Source: a virus
Reading direction: 5' to 3' (one strand)
Virus record (IMG/VR): IMGVR_UViG_3300033985_000077
Location: 1-22,806 of that record
Length of the DNA: 22,806 bases
This document shows positions 5,801 through 15,045 of the stretch, one piece after another (the stretch's first letter is position 1; the number at the start of each line of letters is the position of its first letter). The position numbers and the translations under genes are program-made. The notes under the pieces were generated by a model, which did not search any database, was not told the DNA's origin, and saw only the letters and a list, made by a program, of their open reading frames with translations.

Positions 5801-5966
5801 TGTCTTTCTCCTGTTTGCATCGCTCAGTGCGCTTTGGCGGAATGCTGCCGTCATAAATCAGCTTCTCGTTAGTTAGCCTGCATAGCGACAGCACAGGCCC
5901 GTCCATGTAGTACGGGCAGCGGTATGAACACCTTTCGTTGCTCAAGGGTATGGGTTTAGGCGTCAT
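5790..5966 (-). CDS. Small Cys-rich protein (58 aa)
   Basis: This small frame starts MTPKPIPLSNERCSYRCPYY and carries four cysteines at residues 13, 17, 29 and 50 (CxxxC, then spaced Cys), a possible small zinc or metal site. A purine-rich ribosome site (GGAGAAGGGGGAGTG) lies directly before the ATG. The stop overlaps the next gene start by 11 bases, and its own start overlaps the end of the 54-aa gene upstream. Tight overlap on both sides argues that it is translated. Function unknown. Confidence 0.6.
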   Translation of the reverse strand: MTPKPIPLSNERCSYRCPYYMDGPVLSLCRLTNEKLIYDGSIPPKRTERCKQEKDNEQ

Positions 5967-6120
5967 CACTCCCCCTTCTCCTGTTTAAGCGCGGCGTCAT
6001 GTAACGGCCAGTAGCAGGGCTGAACGAGGCGCCGATGATGTTGGCACCCTGCGCCTCCAGCTCGTCAGCGAGTTGGGCCATCTGGTATAGTATGTTGGCA
6101 GTTGATTTGGCGTCAGTCAT
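5956..6120 (-). CDS. Small protein (54 aa)
   Basis: The protein reads MTDAKSTANILYQMAQLADE and continues ELEAQGANIIGASFSPATGR, ending in a basic tail RLNRRRGSDDA. A GGAGGG site sits seven bases before the ATG. It begins three bases after the stop of the 211-aa gene and overlaps the next gene by 11 bases, as expected in this compact operon. The N-terminal helix is amphipathic. No domain is recognised. Confidence 0.6.
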   Translation of the reverse strand: MTDAKSTANILYQMAQLADELEAQGANIIGASFSPATGRYMTPRLNRRRGSDDA

Positions 6121-6123
6121 GAC

Positions 6124-6759
6124 TTAGCCCTCCTGTCCTGTGTCGCGTGCGATTTCTAGGGTGTCGATACCCGCTCTGGCCATTGCGCCACGGAGCTTGT
6201 TGCCAAGATTCATACGCTGCATGCCGGGGTTTAGGTGACCGTATTTGGCCCGGAGCTTGTCGACGGTATCCAGTGTTTCCAGATCCTTGGCGTCAGTGGC
6301 GGTCTCATTGATTGCGCGGATGTATCTGGCCACAGTGCCATAGGCGTCGTCGAGGTTCAATCCGCGCAGGATTCCAGCCACATAGTCGTTGATATCGATC
6401 ACGGTCTTGCCGGACTGAGTGGTGATCCCAGTGTGGCGGGTGTATCTGCTCCAATCGGGGCGGATGCGGACACGCTGGGTTTCCTCCAATTCGGGTTCTT
6501 CAATCTCTTCCATTTCGACCTCCTCAGGCTCGTTGTTCATCGCCTTCTCAAATGCCTCACGGGTCAGCTTGTAGGCGCGGTTCTTGGGGATGACAAATCC
6601 TCCAGTGATGCCCAGGCCTCCGGCCACCTTGTCAATGATCCGGCCAATGCGCCATTCGCCGGTGTCGGAATCGGGACCCTGCACGTAATCGCCCTTTCTC
6701 TGGCGGATAGCGGGGGCCAGGGTGTCGATGGCGGGGGTGGTGATGATCTGGGTCTTCAT
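6124..6759 (-). CDS. Hypothetical phage protein with acidic linker (211 aa)
   Basis: I do not recognise a family. The N-terminal part contains a compact basic/aromatic segment (RQRKGDYVQGPDSDTGEWRI) and a Gly-rich strand region up to about residue 60. A strongly acidic linker (NNEPEEVEMEEIEEPELEE) follows near 76-94. The C-terminal half is helical (GKTVIDINDYVAGILRGLNL, VARYIRAINETATDAKDLE). The C-terminal end, LRAKYGHLNPGMQRMNLGNK, resembles a basic DNA-facing helix, so DNA binding is possible but unproven. The ATG at 6759 follows AAGGAG in a leader shared with two other genes. It is preceded by its own promoter at 6806-6836. Confidence 0.7.
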   Translation of the reverse strand: MKTQIITTPAIDTLAPAIRQRKGDYVQGPDSDTGEWRIGRIIDKVAGGLGITGGFVIPKNRAYKLTREAFEKAMNNEPEEVEMEEIEEPELEETQRVRIRPDWSRYTRHTGITTQSGKTVIDINDYVAGILRGLNLDDAYGTVARYIRAINETATDAKDLETLDTVDKLRAKYGHLNPGMQRMNLGNKLRGAMARAGIDTLEIARDTGQEG

Positions 6760-6805
6760 GGTGTCTATCTCCTTTATGGGGTTATCTCTCAATCTCGTTA
6801 ACTTT

Positions 6806-6836
6806 GTTATAACACGGGAAACCCATTGTTGTCAAT
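6806..6836 (-). promoter_or_regulatory. Leftward promoter with ATTG-N4-CAAT site over the -35 box
   Basis: On the minus strand TTGACA (6830-6835) and TATAAC (6806-6811) are separated by 18 bases. The -35 box lies in the inverted repeat ATTG-N4-CAAT (6825-6836), and GGGTTTCC fills the spacer. The same arrangement recurs at 7782-7812 and 16349-16379 and in weaker form at 11696-11725, suggesting a shared regulator. It should drive the 211-aa gene. Confidence 0.7.
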
Positions 6837-6872
6837 TATTCCCGTTAATAAGCCCGCACATCGGCATTTGAT

Positions 6873-7737: not shown

Positions 7738-7781
7738 GGTGTTACTCCTTTATGGGGTTATCTCTCAATCTCGTTAACTTT

Positions 7782-7812
7782 GTTATAATATAGGAAGCCC
7801 ATTGTTGTCAAT
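7782..7812 (-). promoter_or_regulatory. Leftward promoter with ATTG-N4-CAAT site, second copy
   Basis: TTGACA (7806-7811) and TATAAC (7782-7787) are 18 bases apart on the minus strand, with the same ATTG-N4-CAAT repeat (7801-7812) over the -35 box. The region from here to the start of the 73-aa gene is a near copy of 6760-6836, so promoter and leader were probably duplicated together. Confidence 0.7.
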
Positions 7813-8237
7813 TATTCAAGTAAAATTTGGTTTAACCTCGTTGTCCATTGATCTTTGGTCAGGCCCCGGCTGGTCAGAATATGACAGGCCCCTGGGCCGT
7901 CAACTGGAATACCAATCTTCAAGGCCCGACCTTGGTGATGCCGGTACAAGAATTCATCACCCCCAAACAAAACAAGAATATAAACCTTTCCAGCCAAGTC
8001 CCCCCGGGTTTTTAGCCAGTTGGCTTGGACTGGTGTCATGGTCGGGGTGCATAACCTATCACCCTTTACGTGTCCAATTTTTAATTCTATCCAACCATGA
8101 CCAGACGGGCAGGAATAGGACAAATCCGGGATACCCCCGCTGGTGGTCCCGGATTCGATTCTGTTGTACAATATGTTTTCCATGGCGTCCAGAGCCGGTT
8201 TGACTCTGGTACGCCAATATCTGGTTTCGGGCTTCAT
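7812..8237 (-). CDS. VRR-NUC-type nuclease
   Basis: This 141-aa protein has the PD-(D/E)xK nuclease core of the VRR-NUC family: SGGIPDLSY with D38, then GWIELKIG with E51 and K53. The TPTMTPVQANWLKTRG segment near 64-79 holds the Gln and aromatic residues typical of the next helix. Stand-alone VRR-NUC proteins are phage structure-specific DNA nucleases, probably used on branched replication or recombination intermediates. The start overlaps the datZ stop by four bases (ATGA), so it is the last member of the coupled purZ string. The family call is firm; the substrate is inferred. Confidence 0.85.
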   Translation of the reverse strand: MKPETRYWRTRVKPALDAMENILYNRIESGTTSGGIPDLSYSCPSGHGWIELKIGHVKGDRLCTPTMTPVQANWLKTRGDLAGKVYILVLFGGDEFLYRHHQGRALKIGIPVDGPGACHILTSRGLTKDQWTTRLNQILLE

Positions 8238-8788
8238 GGCATCAGGTTGTCGATGTATGTTTGTTCACCATGGATATATTCAAGCAAGCAGGAATAACTC
8301 CTGTTCCAATCATACTCCGGCAAAGCATGAGACAGTTGGGCGATGAAGGTGGACATATTATTGCTCAGTTTTTCTCGGATTACTTTTGACTGATCATTGA
8401 TGCCCTCCTCGTGCAGGAATTTTACGGCATCGATATAATCAGCCAACTTGACCACGGCACTAGCTAATGCGGATAGGCCCGATGCGAATGACCACCTGCC
8501 CGGATCAATTCTGGCTTCAAGCTCGTCGAATTTGTCCCTTGCAATATTCTTTATTTGGGATACCGGGTCACCCATAACCACCTCAGGCAAATCGTGTACC
8601 AGAGCCCATAGGATGGCTTCATGGGTTTCCTTCTCGGGGATACCGATTCTCTCGCACAAATCCAAGACCAGCATGCACACCAAATACGAATGCTCGGCCA
8701 CGGTTTGTTGTCTTGGGGTGTTAAGAATGTGCCAACGCTTGACGAATTGGGTCCGGTATATGTCGGATAACTTCAAAGATGTGATCAT
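8234..8788 (-). CDS. datZ: HD-domain dATP triphosphohydrolase, DatZ-type
   Basis: This 184-aa protein is in the YfbR/DatZ branch of the HD superfamily. Metal and catalytic residues visible are H20 in KRWH, H33 in AEHSY, H65-D66 in LVHDLPEV with E69, and D117 in VKLADYID. DatZ hydrolyses dATP to deoxyadenosine and triphosphate, emptying the pool of the base that Z replaces. YfbR itself is a 5'-deoxynucleotidase of the same fold, so sequence alone does not settle the substrate. The presence of PurZ and MazZ in the same overlapping string makes DatZ the best call. The start overlaps the methyltransferase stop (ATGA). Confidence 0.85.
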   Translation of the reverse strand: MITSLKLSDIYRTQFVKRWHILNTPRQQTVAEHSYLVCMLVLDLCERIGIPEKETHEAILWALVHDLPEVVMGDPVSQIKNIARDKFDELEARIDPGRWSFASGLSALASAVVKLADYIDAVKFLHEEGINDQSKVIREKLSNNMSTFIAQLSHALPEYDWNRSYSCLLEYIHGEQTYIDNLMP

Positions 8789-9501
8789 ATCTGGCTCCGA
8801 TGCATAAAAATTGATTCACAAGTTCCATCTTTTGGCTTCCCCGCATAGTGTCCAACCACGGTGTTGCCAAAGTTAAAAACCCTAACCCAATCATCCGGGG
8901 CATCGAACTCGGTTAAAAATACCTGGTTACCCTCGGCCACCAACCCCCTGGCGTATTCCCAGAAAGTTTGATGGTCGAAACTCACACCATAAGCATTTGT
9001 TCTCCCGTTATACGGGGGGTCGAGGTATATTGTGGCCCCGATTGGTTTTACATCCAAATAATCACAACAAACTAACTTAAATTTTGATTTTAGCAGCATG
9101 CTCGCTTTTAGCAGCGTGCTTCTTTTGGCGATAATGGCAAAATTGCAGCCGGTACTATTCCTAGCATAACCCCCCCACCACTTGCCCCCAAAGGACATAC
9201 CAAATCCGCAATACGCCGTCATTGGGTCTTCCGGGTTGCGGGTGTTTTTATAGTACTGGTATGTTTCTTCTGTTATAACATCAGGCGGAACCCACCCCCC
9301 AATGACGGCTCTCCACATGTTAATCAAGGGCTCGTTCAAATCGCTTAGTTGGATAAAACCTTTGAGATGAGGCACAATCCTTGAAGCCACCCCCATAGCC
9401 CCGCAGAAGGGTTCATAATATGGTGTTTCCGGGTCAACCCTTTTCAATATGAAATCGGCTATTTTTGGCCCCTGCCGATATTTACCGCCCATATAATTCA
9501 T
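8785..9501 (-). CDS. D12-class N6-adenine DNA methyltransferase (Dam-like)
   Basis: This 238-aa protein begins MNYMGGKYRQGPKIADFIL and shows the AdoMet-binding motif I YYEPFCGAMGVAS at residues 28-40, then the catalytic DPPY at 161-164 (IYLDPPYNGRTN). Motif order FxGxxG before DPPY is that of the alpha (D12, Dam-like) class, which methylates the exocyclic N6 of adenine. The region between the motifs, rich in Gly/Trp/Tyr (CGFGMSFGGKWWGGYARN), would hold target recognition. It overlaps mazZ and datZ by four bases each. In a genome where A is replaced by Z, its substrate is unclear: N6 is also present on 2-aminoadenine. It may act on Z, on residual A, or on host DNA. Confidence 0.9.
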   Translation of the reverse strand: MNYMGGKYRQGPKIADFILKRVDPETPYYEPFCGAMGVASRIVPHLKGFIQLSDLNEPLINMWRAVIGGWVPPDVITEETYQYYKNTRNPEDPMTAYCGFGMSFGGKWWGGYARNSTGCNFAIIAKRSTLLKASMLLKSKFKLVCCDYLDVKPIGATIYLDPPYNGRTNAYGVSFDHQTFWEYARGLVAEGNQVFLTEFDAPDDWVRVFNFGNTVVGHYAGKPKDGTCESIFMHRSQI

Positions 9502-10238
9502 TCTGGTTCCTCCGTTTCACCCTGGTATTGCGATTTGACATGTTGAAACAGGCCGGAAATCGGGTTTTTCCTCCACCGTCTGGTTTTGTTTATAGCCATC
9601 TTTTCGGTGACTGCCTTTTCCGCATCAACCCCAACCAAATAAGCCAAGTCAAGCACCAAAATCAAAATGTCCGCGTATTCCATGGGGTCATGCACACCGC
9701 CATTAACAAGTTCGGGGATCTCCTCAAACACTAATTTGTTGAATGTTCCTTGGTATGTCCGATCTGGGAAAGTTTTGTTTGCCCAATCGGTGATGTCTTT
9801 TTGGATTTCCGCAATCGTACTGCCTTCTTGTACACGAGGTTCAACTTGGCGCAACAGACCCGGCATATCCAATCCCGCCTGAGGATTCGGCTCGGGTAGA
9901 ATTTGTCCACACTCTTCATTTCTTTGCACACCCGGCATCTCTTTTCTATCATCAAAACCCCCTCCATTTATTTCAAAGTGTCTGAGGACTATAAGTCCCC
10001 AAGTCGCATGGGAAAGATGGGGAAGACCCGATTCCGGGTCAAGATCCTCCCCTTCAAACCATGCCATCATATGTCTGTATACGGCGTCCAAAAGTCTGGA
10101 ATAGGCAAAGCCTTTTTTCCAATTTCCTTTGCCATATTTTTTGGCCCCAAACATAAAAACTTGGGCCAGATCCTTCAATGGTCCAGATGGTATCATAGTG
10201 ATACTAGGCTTGCCGGTGTCGGCCTTCTTCGCTTTCAT
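9498..10238 (-). CDS. mazZ: Two-domain dATP/dGTP diphosphohydrolase, MazZ-type
   Basis: This 246-aa protein has two parts. Residues 1-95 (KPSITMIPSGPLKDLAQVFM, GAKKYGKGNWKKGF, SGLPHLSHATWGLIVLRHFE) match the N-terminal domain of phage dATP/dGTP diphosphohydrolases (DUF5664). Residues 142-225 are a MazG-like all-alpha domain (DUF550) with FEEIPELV (E172, E173, E176) and PMEYADILILVLD (E187, D190) as the metal-binding EExxE...ExxD set. In Z phages MazZ hydrolyses dGTP to dGMP, the substrate of PurZ. A Pro/Gly-rich linker joins the parts. It overlaps purZ by four bases. The C-terminal assignment is strong; the nucleotide choice is inferred from context. Confidence 0.85.
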   Translation of the reverse strand: MKAKKADTGKPSITMIPSGPLKDLAQVFMFGAKKYGKGNWKKGFAYSRLLDAVYRHMMAWFEGEDLDPESGLPHLSHATWGLIVLRHFEINGGGFDDRKEMPGVQRNEECGQILPEPNPQAGLDMPGLLRQVEPRVQEGSTIAEIQKDITDWANKTFPDRTYQGTFNKLVFEEIPELVNGGVHDPMEYADILILVLDLAYLVGVDAEKAVTEKMAINKTRRWRKNPISGLFQHVKSQYQGETEEPE

Positions 10239-11317
10239 ATTCTTGACCCCATACTCCGTACATCATCGATACTCGGACCCCACGCCATGTACTTCACTTG
10301 GGAATACGGTCCAATATATCTTTCAGCCATCGAATTGATCCTCCTCGCCAACTGGTAGGCCGCATCAATAGGCAGGTAATCACAAAAGCTCAAAAAGATT
10401 TCATCCGGGGCACATACCTGCATAGCCTGTATGGTTTGTTCCTTGGAAAAGGTGAAAACCCGCCTTTTCAGTTTGGTCACGGTGGTTATTTCTGGTGTCT
10501 TACCCAAGTTTTCCCATGAAATCTCTTTCTGATCGGGGTAACAGGGCCCAGACCAACCTATCATTTCCCCCTTTTCGTTGTACCGGTTGGCCACCCTGAT
10601 GGGAAATGTCCGCATGACACCCACCACTTTTGCCACCCGTTGAAATGGCACCAAACAATCCGACAGGATCTGGGCGGGGGTGCACTCCCGGGATGTGCAG
10701 TACGGATAGAACCCGGAGTTTACCCCCAGGCTGAAACCCTGTGCCCCCTCAATCTGGATCATGTCAGCTTTGTTGACCATCGACGCCCAATCTTTGGTGT
10801 CGACAATGTGAACATCCTTGACAAGGCCTTCGCCCAGGAGTGTACTGTAAATGGTCCCTGCGTTTACCCCGGCAGTGATCTTGTTGTTGGTGGACCTGCG
10901 GAGCTTTTCGATGAGAGCGGCCCCGGAACCCTTCTTGGTCGACCCGATACCCGTCATGGTTGCTTCTTCTTCGTCCCGGTGGTCCTGTCTCACGATAGCG
11001 GCGTTTTCGTGGATGAAAATCACCTTGTCGTGCATGATATCCCGGCACTCCTTCAGTTCCTTGACCAGAGTGTCCAGATTGAGCACGGAGCCAGGAGCGA
11101 TAGCCACAGCGCGGAGCGCGGGGCTTACAATACCATTTGCCAGTGCGCAGTGAATGAATTTCCGGCCATTGGTGTCAATAAAAGTGTGCCCTGCATTGGG
11201 GCTCCAAGCGGTGATGCACAAATCCGGTTCGTGTTTCATGGCCAAGTACCCAGCCGCTGAGCCCTTACCGGTGGAGCCGAACTGAAGATCACAAATCACA
11301 TAGGCATTCTTTCTCAT
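10235..11317 (-). CDS. purZ: PurZ, succino-2-amino-2'-deoxyadenylate synthase
   Basis: This 360-aa enzyme is an adenylosuccinate synthetase homologue that joins dGMP and aspartate on the way to dZMP. The P-loop region reads CDLQFGSTGKGS (residues 9-20). In cellular PurA this is QWGDEGKGK, so the catalytic Asp is Ser here, the replacement that marks PurZ. Other conserved parts remain: SPNAGHTFID (His of NAGHT), TMTGIGSTKKGSG, EGAQGFSLG, TRECTPAQ. It is shorter than bacterial PurA (about 430 aa), as PurZ enzymes are. The ATG at 11317 follows GAGGAG; an in-frame ATG five codons upstream lacks a ribosome site. It heads the purZ-mazZ-methylase-datZ-nuclease string joined by ATGA overlaps. Confidence 0.93.
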   Translation of the reverse strand: MRKNAYVICDLQFGSTGKGSAAGYLAMKHEPDLCITAWSPNAGHTFIDTNGRKFIHCALANGIVSPALRAVAIAPGSVLNLDTLVKELKECRDIMHDKVIFIHENAAIVRQDHRDEEEATMTGIGSTKKGSGAALIEKLRRSTNNKITAGVNAGTIYSTLLGEGLVKDVHIVDTKDWASMVNKADMIQIEGAQGFSLGVNSGFYPYCTSRECTPAQILSDCLVPFQRVAKVVGVMRTFPIRVANRYNEKGEMIGWSGPCYPDQKEISWENLGKTPEITTVTKLKRRVFTFSKEQTIQAMQVCAPDEIFLSFCDYLPIDAAYQLARRINSMAERYIGPYSQVKYMAWGPSIDDVRSMGSRI

Positions 11318-11335
11318 AAAATTGCTCCTCATGTT

Positions 11336-11587
11336 TCAGAAAGGGAGATCATCCATTTCATCGTTGGCGTTGTATTTTGTTTTTTCTGCCTTTTCTTCTA
11401 TTGGGGTGACGGATAACTGCAGGTATTTTTCCCCGTCATTACGCTTGTATGCGGTCCACCCGGATAGCCAATATTCCTTACCCTCAATATTGATTTTGCC
11501 AGTCATGTCTGGGTGCCTGTCCGTGTTCTTCCGGTTGTTCCGGAAGAGGACGCCTCTGTTGCGATCGTCAAATTCTTTTGCTGCCAT
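11336..11587 (-). CDS. Small single-stranded-DNA-binding-like protein
   Basis: This 83-aa protein (MAAKEFDDRNRGVLFRNNRK) has a run of beta-type segments, TGKINIEGKEYWLSGWTAYK then EKYLQLSVTPIEE, of the size of a minimal OB fold. It ends in the acidic tip NDEMDDLPF, very like the DDDIPF tail that bacterial SSBs use to recruit partner proteins. Similar small proteins accompany phage replication genes. It lies between the polymerase/zinc-ribbon genes and purZ. The ATG at 11587 has AGAGG upstream. The tail motif is clear; SSB function is inferred. Confidence 0.6.
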   Translation of the reverse strand: MAAKEFDDRNRGVLFRNNRKNTDRHPDMTGKINIEGKEYWLSGWTAYKRNDGEKYLQLSVTPIEEKAEKTKYNANDEMDDLPF

Positions 11588-11588
11588 G

Positions 11589-11687
11589 TTAACCTCTTTC
11601 TTCGGTATGTCTACACTGTTCATTCTGACACACCCATGTGCCGGGTGCCACCTCTGCCATTTCTTCTTCACAACTCGGACAATTCAT
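11589..11687 (-). CDS. 32-aa zinc-ribbon protein
   Basis: A very short frame reads MNCPSCEEEMAEVAPGTWVC then QNEQCRHTEERG. Its four cysteines form CPxC and CxxxxC pairs typical of a minimal zinc ribbon. The ATG overlaps the polymerase stop codon (ATGA), a strong GAGGAGGG site precedes it, and its stop is immediately followed by the SSB-like start. These three features together argue that it is translated. It could bind nucleic acid or a replication protein. It is easily missed by length cut-offs. Confidence 0.7.
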   Translation of the reverse strand: MNCPSCEEEMAEVAPGTWVCQNEQCRHTEERG

Positions 11688-13615
11688 GTGCCCTCCTCAT
11701 AACATACGACACCCATTGATGTCAAGTAATCTTTGGAATGTGACCAACCCTTACCCGTTATTTTTTCGGCTTGTGTGGCCTCCCACCAATTTTTACCGGG
11801 TATAGAAAAATCAATCCTAAGTGGGATCCTTAATTCGGGTCGGTCCTCGATAAGATATTTGATTCTTTCCAAGTGTTTTTTTGCATTGTCACAAGACAGA
11901 CTGATTGAATATTCATCGTGAATCGAAAGCAGCAGCCGACCCCCGCTCTCCGCCTCCAAGTATTCACATATCCGGCAGATGTTTTCTTTGTTGAGATCCG
12001 CACTTGAACCCTGATATATCAAACCAGATGCCTTGTGTGTGAATTTCCCACCGGGAAAGCGAATATGCCGACCTTTCAAGGTGCGAACATAACCCCGGGA
12101 CTTAGCCACGGCGGAAGCGTTTTTTGCCATCTCCTTGACACCAGGAACAGCATCATAGTACTTGGCCATGACAGCGAGGGTTTCCTCCCCCGGCTTCAAA
12201 ATCTCCCGCTCTTCAGTGTCGTCCTTAAATTTGACTTTTTCGATGGTAAAGGGGAGGCCCATCTTTTCAGCTAATCTCCCTCCGCCCATATTAAATACCA
12301 TGGCAAGGTTGATTTGCTTGGCGTTCGCCTGTCCGGATCTGGTGGCGTTCCGGGGCAAGCCGGTCATATCTGCCACAACCTGGTGAATGTCGAGATCAGG
12401 ATTTTCCCGATAAGCTTGATTCAGGGAAGGTGCATTGACATAATGTGCAAAGATACGGAATTCATGCTGGTCTAGGTCCCCGTACGCCCAACCCTGGCCA
12501 TCATCAGGTAAAAATATCGGACGCACCAGCGAGGCGATCTCCTTATCCCTGCTGGGTATTTGCTGGAGAGCCGGATTGGAATATGAAAGCCTTCCCGTAC
12601 CAGTGCCCTCAACCCCGCCGCTGCTTTCGGACTTGGTTTGGTTGATGTTGGGGTGTACCCTACCATTGTGGGTGTGTTCAATCACGTGCTTGGCCAGAAA
12701 TGTGTCCCGGGTCTTCATGTACTTGCGGCATCTTAAGATTAACTTGGCCGCAGGATGTGTCATAGCCAGAAGCTGGTCTGCTCCTATGGATGGTTGATCT
12801 CCACTGGTGGCCGGGAGAGGTGTACCGTCACATGCTATCCATACACCATCTTTATTCTTCTTCGGGTTGAACAGTTTTTTGATTGACCCAGATGGGTTTG
12901 GGTTCACATGAAACCCGGCCACCTTATCCAATTCTTTCTGGATTTGGTCAATCTTGACAGTCAATTTATCTATGGTTTTGTGGGCCAAATCCACATCAAC
13001 TCTTATACCACGCCTTTCCATGTCAAAAATAAAAGGAAAAAGCCTCATCTCAAGGGCGTGAACCTGTTGTAGACACTGCCTTTTTATTTCCTTTTGCTGC
13101 CACATCCACAATTCCATGGCAACCCTGCTGTCCATCTTGGCGTATTCTTCAACCACGCTTTTTGGTGCCCTGCTGATATTTTTCATCTGGGCGGTACGTG
13201 TTGGTTGCCCACCAAATAATCCGGCCAACTTTTCATATATGGTTGAATCTTTTCGTTTACCGATATATTTTTGGGCCAGTGAATCAAGATCGTATTTGAA
13301 CAAATGTTCATCAATCAAAGCGGCATTGATCATAGTGCACTCAACCCGCCGGGGGTCAATCACAATGCCCTCATTTAGGAGCATGTGCATATCAAATTTG
13401 ACATTGTGATTGACAACCTTGTTTATTTTGGGGGCTTGGTCCCTGAGCCATGCAAAAAGGCCCTCATCCACCCGGCTGTCGAAATAATAATCCCGGATCT
13501 CACCCCCATCAAAGGTAGACACTGCAACACCAAAAACCTTGTCTCTGTACCACTCCACACCTGTGGTTTCTACGTCTATTGAAACCACTTCATATCTGTC
13601 TAGATTCGGGTACAT
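11684..13615 (-). CDS. Family A DNA polymerase with 3'-5' exonuclease, DpoZ candidate
   Basis: This 643-aa polymerase is Klenow-like, with no 5'-3' exonuclease domain. Exonuclease motifs are SIDVETTG (D14, E16), NHNVKFDMHML and YAKMDSRVA. Polymerase motif A is YGDLDQHEFRIFAHY, motif B spans RSGQANAKQINLAMVFNMGG, and motif C is LSIHDEYSI. In the O helix the usual NFGxxYG is changed to NLAMVFN, so the Phe, Tyr and Gly positions that shape the nucleotide site are Leu, Phe and Asn. Known Z phages of the phiVC8 type use a family A polymerase (DpoZ) that prefers dZTP; the neighbouring purZ cluster makes that likely here. ATG at 13615 has GAGGTG upstream; a GTG two codons earlier is possible. Confidence 0.9.
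   Translation of the reverse strand: MYPNLDRYEVVSIDVETTGVEWYRDKVFGVAVSTFDGGEIRDYYFDSRVDEGLFAWLRDQAPKINKVVNHNVKFDMHMLLNEGIVIDPRRVECTMINAALIDEHLFKYDLDSLAQKYIGKRKDSTIYEKLAGLFGGQPTRTAQMKNISRAPKSVVEEYAKMDSRVAMELWMWQQKEIKRQCLQQVHALEMRLFPFIFDMERRGIRVDVDLAHKTIDKLTVKIDQIQKELDKVAGFHVNPNPSGSIKKLFNPKKNKDGVWIACDGTPLPATSGDQPSIGADQLLAMTHPAAKLILRCRKYMKTRDTFLAKHVIEHTHNGRVHPNINQTKSESSGGVEGTGTGRLSYSNPALQQIPSRDKEIASLVRPIFLPDDGQGWAYGDLDQHEFRIFAHYVNAPSLNQAYRENPDLDIHQVVADMTGLPRNATRSGQANAKQINLAMVFNMGGGRLAEKMGLPFTIEKVKFKDDTEEREILKPGEETLAVMAKYYDAVPGVKEMAKNASAVAKSRGYVRTLKGRHIRFPGGKFTHKASGLIYQGSSADLNKENICRICEYLEAESGGRLLLSIHDEYSISLSCDNAKKHLERIKYLIEDRPELRIPLRIDFSIPGKNWWEATQAEKITGKGWSHSKDYLTSMGVVCYEEGT
11696..11725 (-). 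promoter_or_regulatory. Possible internal promoter before the zinc ribbon, ssb and purZ string
   Basis: TTGACA (11720-11725) and TATGAG (11696-11701) are 18 bases apart on the minus strand, inside the last codons of the polymerase gene. The -35 is followed by TCAATGGG, matching the promoter family at 6806, 7782 and 16349 (TTG-N4-CAA is kept). The -10 is weak, and a start here would fall almost at the zinc-ribbon ATG, so it would chiefly serve ssb and the purZ string. Confidence 0.4.
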
Positions 13616-13617
13616 AT

Positions 13618-15045
13618 TCACCTCAACATGGGGAGAGGGTTATCATCAAAGACAATATCCAGGGTATGTTTAGCCCGGGTCACGCCAACATAGAAAACCC
13701 GGATTTCCCCATCCGGGTTGTTGTGTAAGGCCTCGGCACTCCGGGCATTCATGGCATTTATCAGGATAACCCTTTCAGCTTCCCGGCCCTTACTACCATG
13801 AATCGATGACAGGTGAATTGTGGGTCTGACATTCAGACCATACCGGGTTTCAACCTCAGCCAAGTAATTGATATCAGCATACCTACCCACGGCGATATCT
13901 GTCCAGTGTTTTTTGTTTAAGAATGAAAAATCATCAGCATCGATTTCCCGGGACTGCCCCGGAAACACTCTTTTCATGGCCCTGCGCTCGGCCTCTGTTG
14001 CCATGCTGCAGTGCATTGCGTTGAAATTCTTCCCACAGGCCACCAAAGCTTTTACGGCCCTGGCCAGATAAGATTGCATCACCCCAGGTTTTCCGGAGTC
14101 AGTGATGTATGGTGTGTTCGACTCAATCAATTTTTGCTCGATGTCATTCCTCAAAGAATGGTTACGGTACAAAATCAAGACGTCCTCACCGTGCGTGATC
14201 GGGTTTAGATTCCACACTGTGTCAAATTTCCGGACCCGTCCGCTTTCCGTTCTTGGTTTGTATATCTTTTCCTGTCGTTTGGATATTTGGTTTATGAGAT
14301 CGGTTGCCAGTGTATGTACGCTGGCTGGGATTCTATACGACTGATCCAAGATTTTGATTCCAGAGGCATACCTTTCAGCGAATTTGTTCATACCGGCGGG
14401 GTCGGCACCCCCAAACACATATATGGACTGGTCATCATCTCCAGCCACAAACACTCTTTTCATATTTGCTGCCCAAGATTCGACCAACTTCCACTGCAGG
14501 GGTGATAAATCTTGGGCCTCATCAATAAAGAGGTTTTCATAATTAATCGTGGTCCCGTATGCCAACTCCAACATATCTGTGAAGTCCACCAGACCGTAGG
14601 CCTTCTTAAATTCTTCATACTTCTGAACAAAAAATCTGAATTCTTCCGGGGATCCGTCCCGGACGGTATGATCATAGGTTTCGCCAAGTTCGCTGCGCAG
14701 TTTGTTTCTATGCATTGAATACAAAGCTAGATAAAAATCGCCAATCTGGGGTAATTCACCTTCTTCCGGATTTGAGCCCGTAATTTCAAACCCGGTCAAA
14801 CTGGCGAACTTCTTGAAATCGTCGCGACCGATGACCTGGTCCTTTGTAATCCCGGCACTCCGGAAGGCCAGGCTGTGGATGGTGGAAATATCAAAATCCA
14901 TACCCTTGCATCTGGAGGTCATTTCCGCCGCTGCCGCCCGGGTGAATGACACAAAACAAGATTTGCCCTTGGTGCTTTTCATAATATCGATCAAGGTGGT
15001 TGATTTGCCACAGCCGGGAGGCCCAAATATTACGGTGCTTTCCAT
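13618..15045 (-). CDS. UvrD/Rep-type superfamily 1 DNA helicase
   Basis: This 475-aa protein is a short UvrD-like helicase. Motif I is GPPGCGKST (residues 8-16), motif II is FIDEAQDLSP, motif III is VAGDDDQSIYVFGG, motif V includes LSSIHGSKGREAERVIL and motif VI is VFYVGVTRAKHTLD. It should unwind DNA 3'-5' during replication or repair. Cellular UvrD/Rep proteins are about 670-720 aa; the inserted 1B/2B domains look shortened here. AGAGG lies upstream of the ATG, after a perfect hairpin in the intergenic gap. Its stop lies just before the polymerase ATG, placing the two in one transcript. Confidence 0.9.
   Translation of the reverse strand: MESTVIFGPPGCGKSTTLIDIMKSTKGKSCFVSFTRAAAAEMTSRCKGMDFDISTIHSLAFRSAGITKDQVIGRDDFKKFASLTGFEITGSNPEEGELPQIGDFYLALYSMHRNKLRSELGETYDHTVRDGSPEEFRFFVQKYEEFKKAYGLVDFTDMLELAYGTTINYENLFIDEAQDLSPLQWKLVESWAANMKRVFVAGDDDQSIYVFGGADPAGMNKFAERYASGIKILDQSYRIPASVHTLATDLINQISKRQEKIYKPRTESGRVRKFDTVWNLNPITHGEDVLILYRNHSLRNDIEQKLIESNTPYITDSGKPGVMQSYLARAVKALVACGKNFNAMHCSMATEAERRAMKRVFPGQSREIDADDFSFLNKKHWTDIAVGRYADINYLAEVETRYGLNVRPTIHLSSIHGSKGREAERVILINAMNARSAEALHNNPDGEIRVFYVGVTRAKHTLDIVFDDNPLPMLR

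Follow-up and report, generated by a model that had tools for sequence, protein, structure and literature searches.

A Dam-like DNA methyltransferase gene within a viral Z cluster belongs to a lineage concentrated in Z phages and may act on 2-aminoadenine

Introduction

What could a DNA methylase of the N6-adenine type do in an operon that removes dATP and makes 2-aminoadenine (Z)? The question is raised by a gene at 8785-9501 of the window, by which we mean the whole stretch of DNA analysed here (22,806 nucleotides; IMG/VR record IMGVR_UViG_3300033985_000077), a 22.8-kb virus record that is probably a fragment. An earlier note on this DNA, made from its letters, had assumed that phage DNA in which A is fully replaced by Z offers a classical adenine methylase nothing to act on. 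This assumption is wrong, since Z retains the N6 amino group. E. coli methylases reportedly methylate Z weakly, favouring A over Z at least 10-fold, and 6-methyl-Z is reported to give resistance to endonucleases (the short discussion in PMC8342488, the only literature on Z and methylation that we found).

Results

The Z cluster of the window looks complete

The operon lies on the minus strand in the order helicase, PolA, SSB-like protein, purZ, mazZ, methylase, datZ and small nuclease-like protein, with the following features:

7812-8237, minus strand: small nuclease-like protein, 3′ of datZ (phrog_2165; synteny)
8234-8788, minus strand: datZ, dATP triphosphohydrolase, HD domain (phrog_7076, 90 bits; HD_3/YfbR-like)
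8785-9501, minus strand: D12 (Dam-like) DNA methyltransferase, 238 aa, intact (PF02086, phrog_56, structure model)
9498-10238, minus strand: mazZ, DUF5664 fused to dATP/dGTP pyrophosphohydrolase (PF18909, 103.5 bits; PF04447, 43.2 bits)
10235-11332, minus strand: purZ, Ser-type, QFGSTGKG (phrog_1211, 301 bits; PF00709; Ser at the PurA Asp13 position)
11336-11671, minus strand: SSB-like protein (homologue of a gene annotated as ssDNA-binding in Z phages)
11684-13621, minus strand: PolA-family polymerase, probable DpoZ (PF00476, 158 bits; Phe in motif B, VFNMGGG)

TCAT is found on the plus strand at 8785-8788, 9498-9501 and 10235-10238, which reads ATGA on the coding strand. These three 4-nt overlaps chain the four genes purZ, mazZ, methylase and datZ, bearing out the ATGA coupling of the methylase gene to mazZ and datZ described in the earlier note.

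The window PurZ has a serine at residue 20 (QFGSTGKG), where PurA has its catalytic Asp13; PMC12884076 gives a serine in 100% of 147 phage PurZ proteins and an Asp13 conservation of 99% in PurA. Both mazZ and datZ adjoin purZ (MazZ with PF18909 and PF04447, DatZ with phrog_7076), and the window polymerase is closest, among the polymerases compared, to the PolA of Z phages, with 815-824 bits to four of five phages of the SH-Ab/PMBT28 type and 758 to the fifth. According to the passages of PMC8599892 on DpoZ, Tyr to Phe in motif B is the single change common to both DpoZ clades; the phenylalanine of the window PolA (VFNMGGG) was equated with F459 by motif, not by structure. The gene order helicase, PolA, SSB, purZ, fused mazZ, datZ and small nuclease-like gene is identical in Acinetobacter phage SH-Ab 15497 and Salmonella phage PMBT28; unlike these two phages, which have no D12 gene anywhere, the window has a methylase between mazZ and datZ. 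In summary, the Z cluster looks complete as judged from its genes, and this, with the Ser-type PurZ, the MazZ and DatZ domains and the DpoZ-like polymerase, makes it likely that the virion DNA contains Z.

The neighbour at 7812-8237 was considered as a restriction partner of the methylase and, within this probable fragment of 22.8 kb, set aside as unlikely, since it is also found 3′ of datZ in methylase-free Z phages. An 80-nt repeat (6769-6848 and 7745-7824, 91% identical) has promoter-like sequence on the minus strand and lies 5′ of two ORFs downstream of the Z operon, and a ThyX-type thymidylate synthase gene (PF02511; 20990-21619, plus strand, opposite to the Z operon) follows an exonuclease gene.

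The methylase is a Dam-like D12 enzyme by fold and motifs

The methylase ORF (8785-9501, minus strand) is uninterrupted, starts with ATG and encodes 238 aa, with FCGAMG (SAM-binding motif I) at residues 32-37 and the catalytic DPPY at residues 161-164. The protein matches PF02086 (MethyltransfD12) at 42.3 bits, compared to a curated cut-off of 22, and phrog_56 ('DNA methyltransferase') at 99.7 bits, so that the D12 assignment made in the earlier note holds. Residues F32, G34, D161, P163 and Y164 are invariant in a 47-row alignment (A6), and the structure model from the 47-row alignment has a mean pLDDT of 91.5 and a pTM of 0.89. Foldseek ranks 1-23 are all chains of T4 Dam, E. coli Dam, DpnM and McbE1, with a VIA-align Z of 14.3-18.3 to Dam-type enzymes. 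These best solved relatives and the intact DPPY point to the fold of a DNA N6-adenine methylase; by modelled fold and motifs the window methylase is thus a Dam-like D12 enzyme, and N6 transfer itself is predicted.

The window enzyme shares with T4 Dam, E. coli Dam, DpnM and McbE1 the fold over 203-218 aligned residues, motif I, DPPY and a PF02086-type domain, but it is 15-23% identical to them and sits in a Z cluster. Its lineage also differs from the Dam enzymes in having Gln10, Leu160, Arg167, Thr197 and a C-terminal G[DN]TVVxHxAGK stretch. With the phrog_56 methylases of phages such as Vibrio phage F27 and Curtobacterium phage Sooty it forms one family (31-38% identity to ten aligned isolates); unlike the window, none of the 10 isolate records scanned has a PF00709 gene.

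Between the methylase genes of the window and of L018, a metagenomic PurZ record described below, the differences at the three codon positions are 0.25, 0.22 and 0.57, and the greater divergence at the third position implies purifying selection on the methylase. No 4-bp palindrome was clearly avoided and no motif could be inferred, which counts against methylation of Z; restriction-site avoidance was dropped as a clue to the motif, the signal not being clear.

D12 genes are rare in Z phages

We looked for D12 genes in isolate Z phages chosen from 200 PurZ-bearing phage records and found none anywhere in the 17 examined (12, and 5 with more distant PurZ); PF01555 methylases were likewise absent from the 12. 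Among the 13 records of the scan that covered the 12, the sole D12 match was in the L003 record, which has no PF00709 gene. Three of 80 metagenomic PurZ records (the best 80 of 375) carry a D12 gene, with 3/50 in a first set and 0/30 in a second. D12 genes are hence rare in Z phages, and this counts against methylation of Z.

In all three of these metagenomic records the gene is at the Z cluster: between mazZ and datZ in L018, as in the window, with 65% identity (158/243); about 0.65 kb after datZ in L033; and between polA and purZ in L044. The 65% identical relative in the same mazZ-datZ slot of L018, together with purifying selection, argues that the placement of the methylase is not due to chance.

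Several D12-bearing records have further features. The L033 methylase (L033:8530-9657) is fused to a C-terminal domain with the family annotation 'unknown function' (phrog_6802), and this domain is found by itself close to the L044 Z cluster (L044:7826-8353). A second DNA methylase family, phrog_799, was matched in 1/50 (L044) and 1/46 (L127) records scanned, in both cases in a D12-bearing Z phage (L044:8761-9285; L127 record G094:C1:9117-10022). The Z-phage D12 gene of L127 (L127:4090-6555) is split by an IS1595-type transposase gene, which suggests that the methylase is dispensable there, and the D12 gene of L184, also from a PurZ record, is split over two frames; both disruptions weigh against methylation of Z.

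The window methylase belongs to a lineage concentrated in Z phages

As single-protein queries of viral contigs, the window methylase matched only L003, from a record without a PF00709 gene, and the window PurZ gave no match. Single-protein searches were replaced by alignment searches, with the non-homologous second ORF of L103 taken out of the methylase profile. The search of viral contigs, with a query that partly consisted of Z-phage methylases, was followed for the best 80 of 216 loci, and PF00709 was then sought across the full length of these 80 records and of 10 phage isolate records that carry a related methylase. A PF00709 gene was found in 8 of these 90 records. It has the PurZ-type serine in six (L018, L033, L114, L115, L127 and L184); the other two, in jumbo-phage records (G133 and G154), have the Asp of the PurA type and were left out of the PurZ count.

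In a 79-row tree without near-duplicate loci, the window methylase pairs with L018 (97%) inside a clade of nine rows with 97% SH-aLRT, namely the window, L018, L033, L044, L114, L115, L127, L116 and L117, and 7/9 rows come from PurZ records. In a careful tree of 35 selected rows, the methylase clade has a support of 98/92, and a single clade of the seven PurZ-record members was not rejected (p-AU 0.165). L116 and L117 belong to the clade, but PF00709 is absent from their records of 50 kb and 40 kb, which may be incomplete. The clade thus appears not to be exclusive to PurZ phages, and this counts against methylation of Z, as does the D12 gene of the PurZ record L184, which falls outside the clade.

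Whole-record scans gave PurZ in 5/8 clade records, compared to 1/82 outside the clade; the eight include both L117 and L118, whose methylases score alike. The Fisher p-value is 7e-6, or 4e-4 when the query rows and the near-duplicate are removed, and serves only as a guide, given the common ancestry of the rows and the use of two clade records in the search query. A second sample, used solely as a sample of outside methylases, came from a query alignment whose single PurZ-record row was that of the window; the sample does not contain L018 and comprises 69 new methylase loci among the matches listed, 50 of them scanned whole and the other 19 within their flanks. PurZ was absent from the 50 records scanned whole and from the flanks (up to 6 kb per side) of all 69 loci, and none of the 69 has the clade marker patterns. 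The combined count is PurZ in 5/8 clade records and 1/132 outside.

In summary, by these sequence comparisons the window methylase belongs to a lineage concentrated in Z phages, with a co-occurrence beyond chance. This enrichment lends some support to methylation of the N6 of Z, and the finding that the close relatives are mostly in other Z viruses suggests that Z itself may be methylated.

A mobile bacterial restriction gene was rejected as the origin of the methylase: there was no plasmid match, and among 28 bacterial/archaeal loci only L193 went beyond E 1e-40 (39% identity), the others being at 8e-7 or weaker. No PurZ match was found at these 28 loci.

Two clade records deserve separate mention. 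In L116 the clade is represented by a pair of D12 methylase genes (5932-6723 and 8151-9185) that lie about 2 kb from each other. The L115 record has a Ser-type PurZ and a PF00206 lyase, adenylosuccinate lyase-like (L228:2048-3250, minus strand; L228:7410-8498, plus strand), and a DUF5664-type gene adjoins its purZ; adenylosuccinate lyase carries out the next step of Z synthesis and is normally supplied by the host.

Residue 197 differs between PurZ-record members and other methylases

Thr197 is present in 7/7 clade members from PurZ records and in 0/138 outside rows, where position 197 is Ser in 136, Asn in one and a gap in one; L116, L117 and L184 likewise have Ser. Most clade members carry Leu160 immediately N-terminal to DPPY and Arg167 closely C-terminal to it; in the 138 outside rows position 160 is Cys in 124 and position 167 is Thr in 116. 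L116 and L117 have the clade residues Gln10, Leu160 and Arg167, and hence Leu160 and Arg167 track the lineage and not Z. From one residue comparison L192, L176, L185 and L184 were excluded. In the structure model, residue 197 lies near the end of strand 193-198 and DPPY follows strand 157-160; these two strands are neighbours in the Dam-type fold.

Methylase and PurZ differ in their relatedness

The identities of the two proteins do not run in parallel. PurZ identity between the window and L114 is 26%, compared to 54% for the methylase; the corresponding values are 34% and 54% for the window and L115, and 60% and 28% for L033 and L044. This mismatch implies that the methylase has not merely been co-inherited with PurZ. 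Moreover, the position of the gene varies, from inside the Z cluster to beside it or about 9 kb away (L114). The simplest reading of these comparisons is that the methylase moved among Z phages or was gained repeatedly, a pattern expected from a Z-linked function; alternatively, the mismatch could stem from some PurZ proteins having evolved faster.

Discussion

We prefer, with a probability of about 0.5, to read the gene product as an orphan N6 methylase whose substrate is Z in the phage DNA and which probably serves to counter restriction. DNA synthesised with the help of the Z operon would be the expected target of an enzyme retained in that operon, which favours N6 methylation of Z. The methylase would be co-produced with the enzymes of Z synthesis, and its substrate would be the phage's own Z-containing DNA. 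Once DpoZ had copied the genome with dZTP, the enzyme would bind a short putative motif and flip out 2-aminoadenine, the N6 amino group would be held in the DPPY pocket, and a methyl group would be transferred from S-adenosylmethionine, giving N6-methyl-2-aminoadenine at specific sites. The likely benefit would be to shield restriction sites at which Z by itself gives no resistance, or to label the phage's own DNA. We infer, besides the presence of Z in the genome, that Z and not A or C is the target, that the enzyme is sequence-specific and that its role is anti-restriction.

The same fold and DPPY site, being those of N6-adenine enzymes, would also suit an ordinary adenine methylase that acts on A and not on Z, either in host DNA or in phage DNA with residual A (incomplete replacement or early infection). 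The at least 10-fold preference of E. coli methylases for A (PMC8342488, in its short discussion) and the clade relatives L116 and L117, from phages without a PF00709 gene in the record, are in line with this explanation. Nevertheless, we consider it rather unlikely, since the gene is kept in an operon that removes dATP (through datZ) and makes Z, and an enzyme restricted to A would not account for the enrichment of the clade in PurZ phages. Related methylases are common in phages (227/50,697 records) and the majority of Z phages have no D12 methylase, and with one copy interrupted by a transposase gene (L127) and one split over two frames (L184), the gene might be a common phage anti-restriction methylase that landed in Z clusters without any Z-related role. 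Such a passenger would hardly be expected to occupy the same slot in L018 at 65% identity under purifying selection, or to be enriched in, and exchanged among, PurZ records, and we regard this explanation as more unlikely still. A cytosine-N4 methylase could guard restriction sites made of G+C only, which the replacement of A by Z cannot protect, and would thus cover the gap left by Z; N4-cytosine and N6-adenine enzymes also have a common fold class. This is the least probable of the explanations considered, as every DNA methylase among the close structural matches is a Dam-type adenine enzyme, DPPY rather than SPPY or TPPY speaks against an N4-cytosine methylase, and no G+C-only 4-bp palindrome is clearly avoided.

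In the literature searched, with most subscription papers and all preprints lying outside the search, we found neither a Z-cluster methylase nor methylated Z in natural DNA described, consistent with the earlier note, which was not aware of any characterisation of the combination. In PMC12884076, the latest Z-phage survey that we found, no word of the main text begins with 'methyl', which fits novelty and rarity alike. The kind of enzyme is known, and what is likely to be new is its setting in a Z cluster and its probable substrate; new here, from the sequence comparisons, is also the membership of the methylase in a lineage concentrated in Z phages.

Returning to N6 methylation of Z, we tentatively extend it to the family, as a proposal that falls a little short of even odds: a pool of Dam-like methylases may have adapted to 2-aminoadenine and passed between Z phages without being tied to PurZ; some Z genomes would then carry N6-methyl-2-aminoadenine, a doubly modified base of natural origin, in a sequence-specific manner as a second protective layer, with Thr197 and the residues flanking DPPY as part of the adaptation. 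If Z phages do methylate Z, methyl marking would exist on a non-standard genome, some hosts would have to possess restriction that defeats Z alone, and an enzyme would be available to write methyl marks on Z-containing synthetic DNA.
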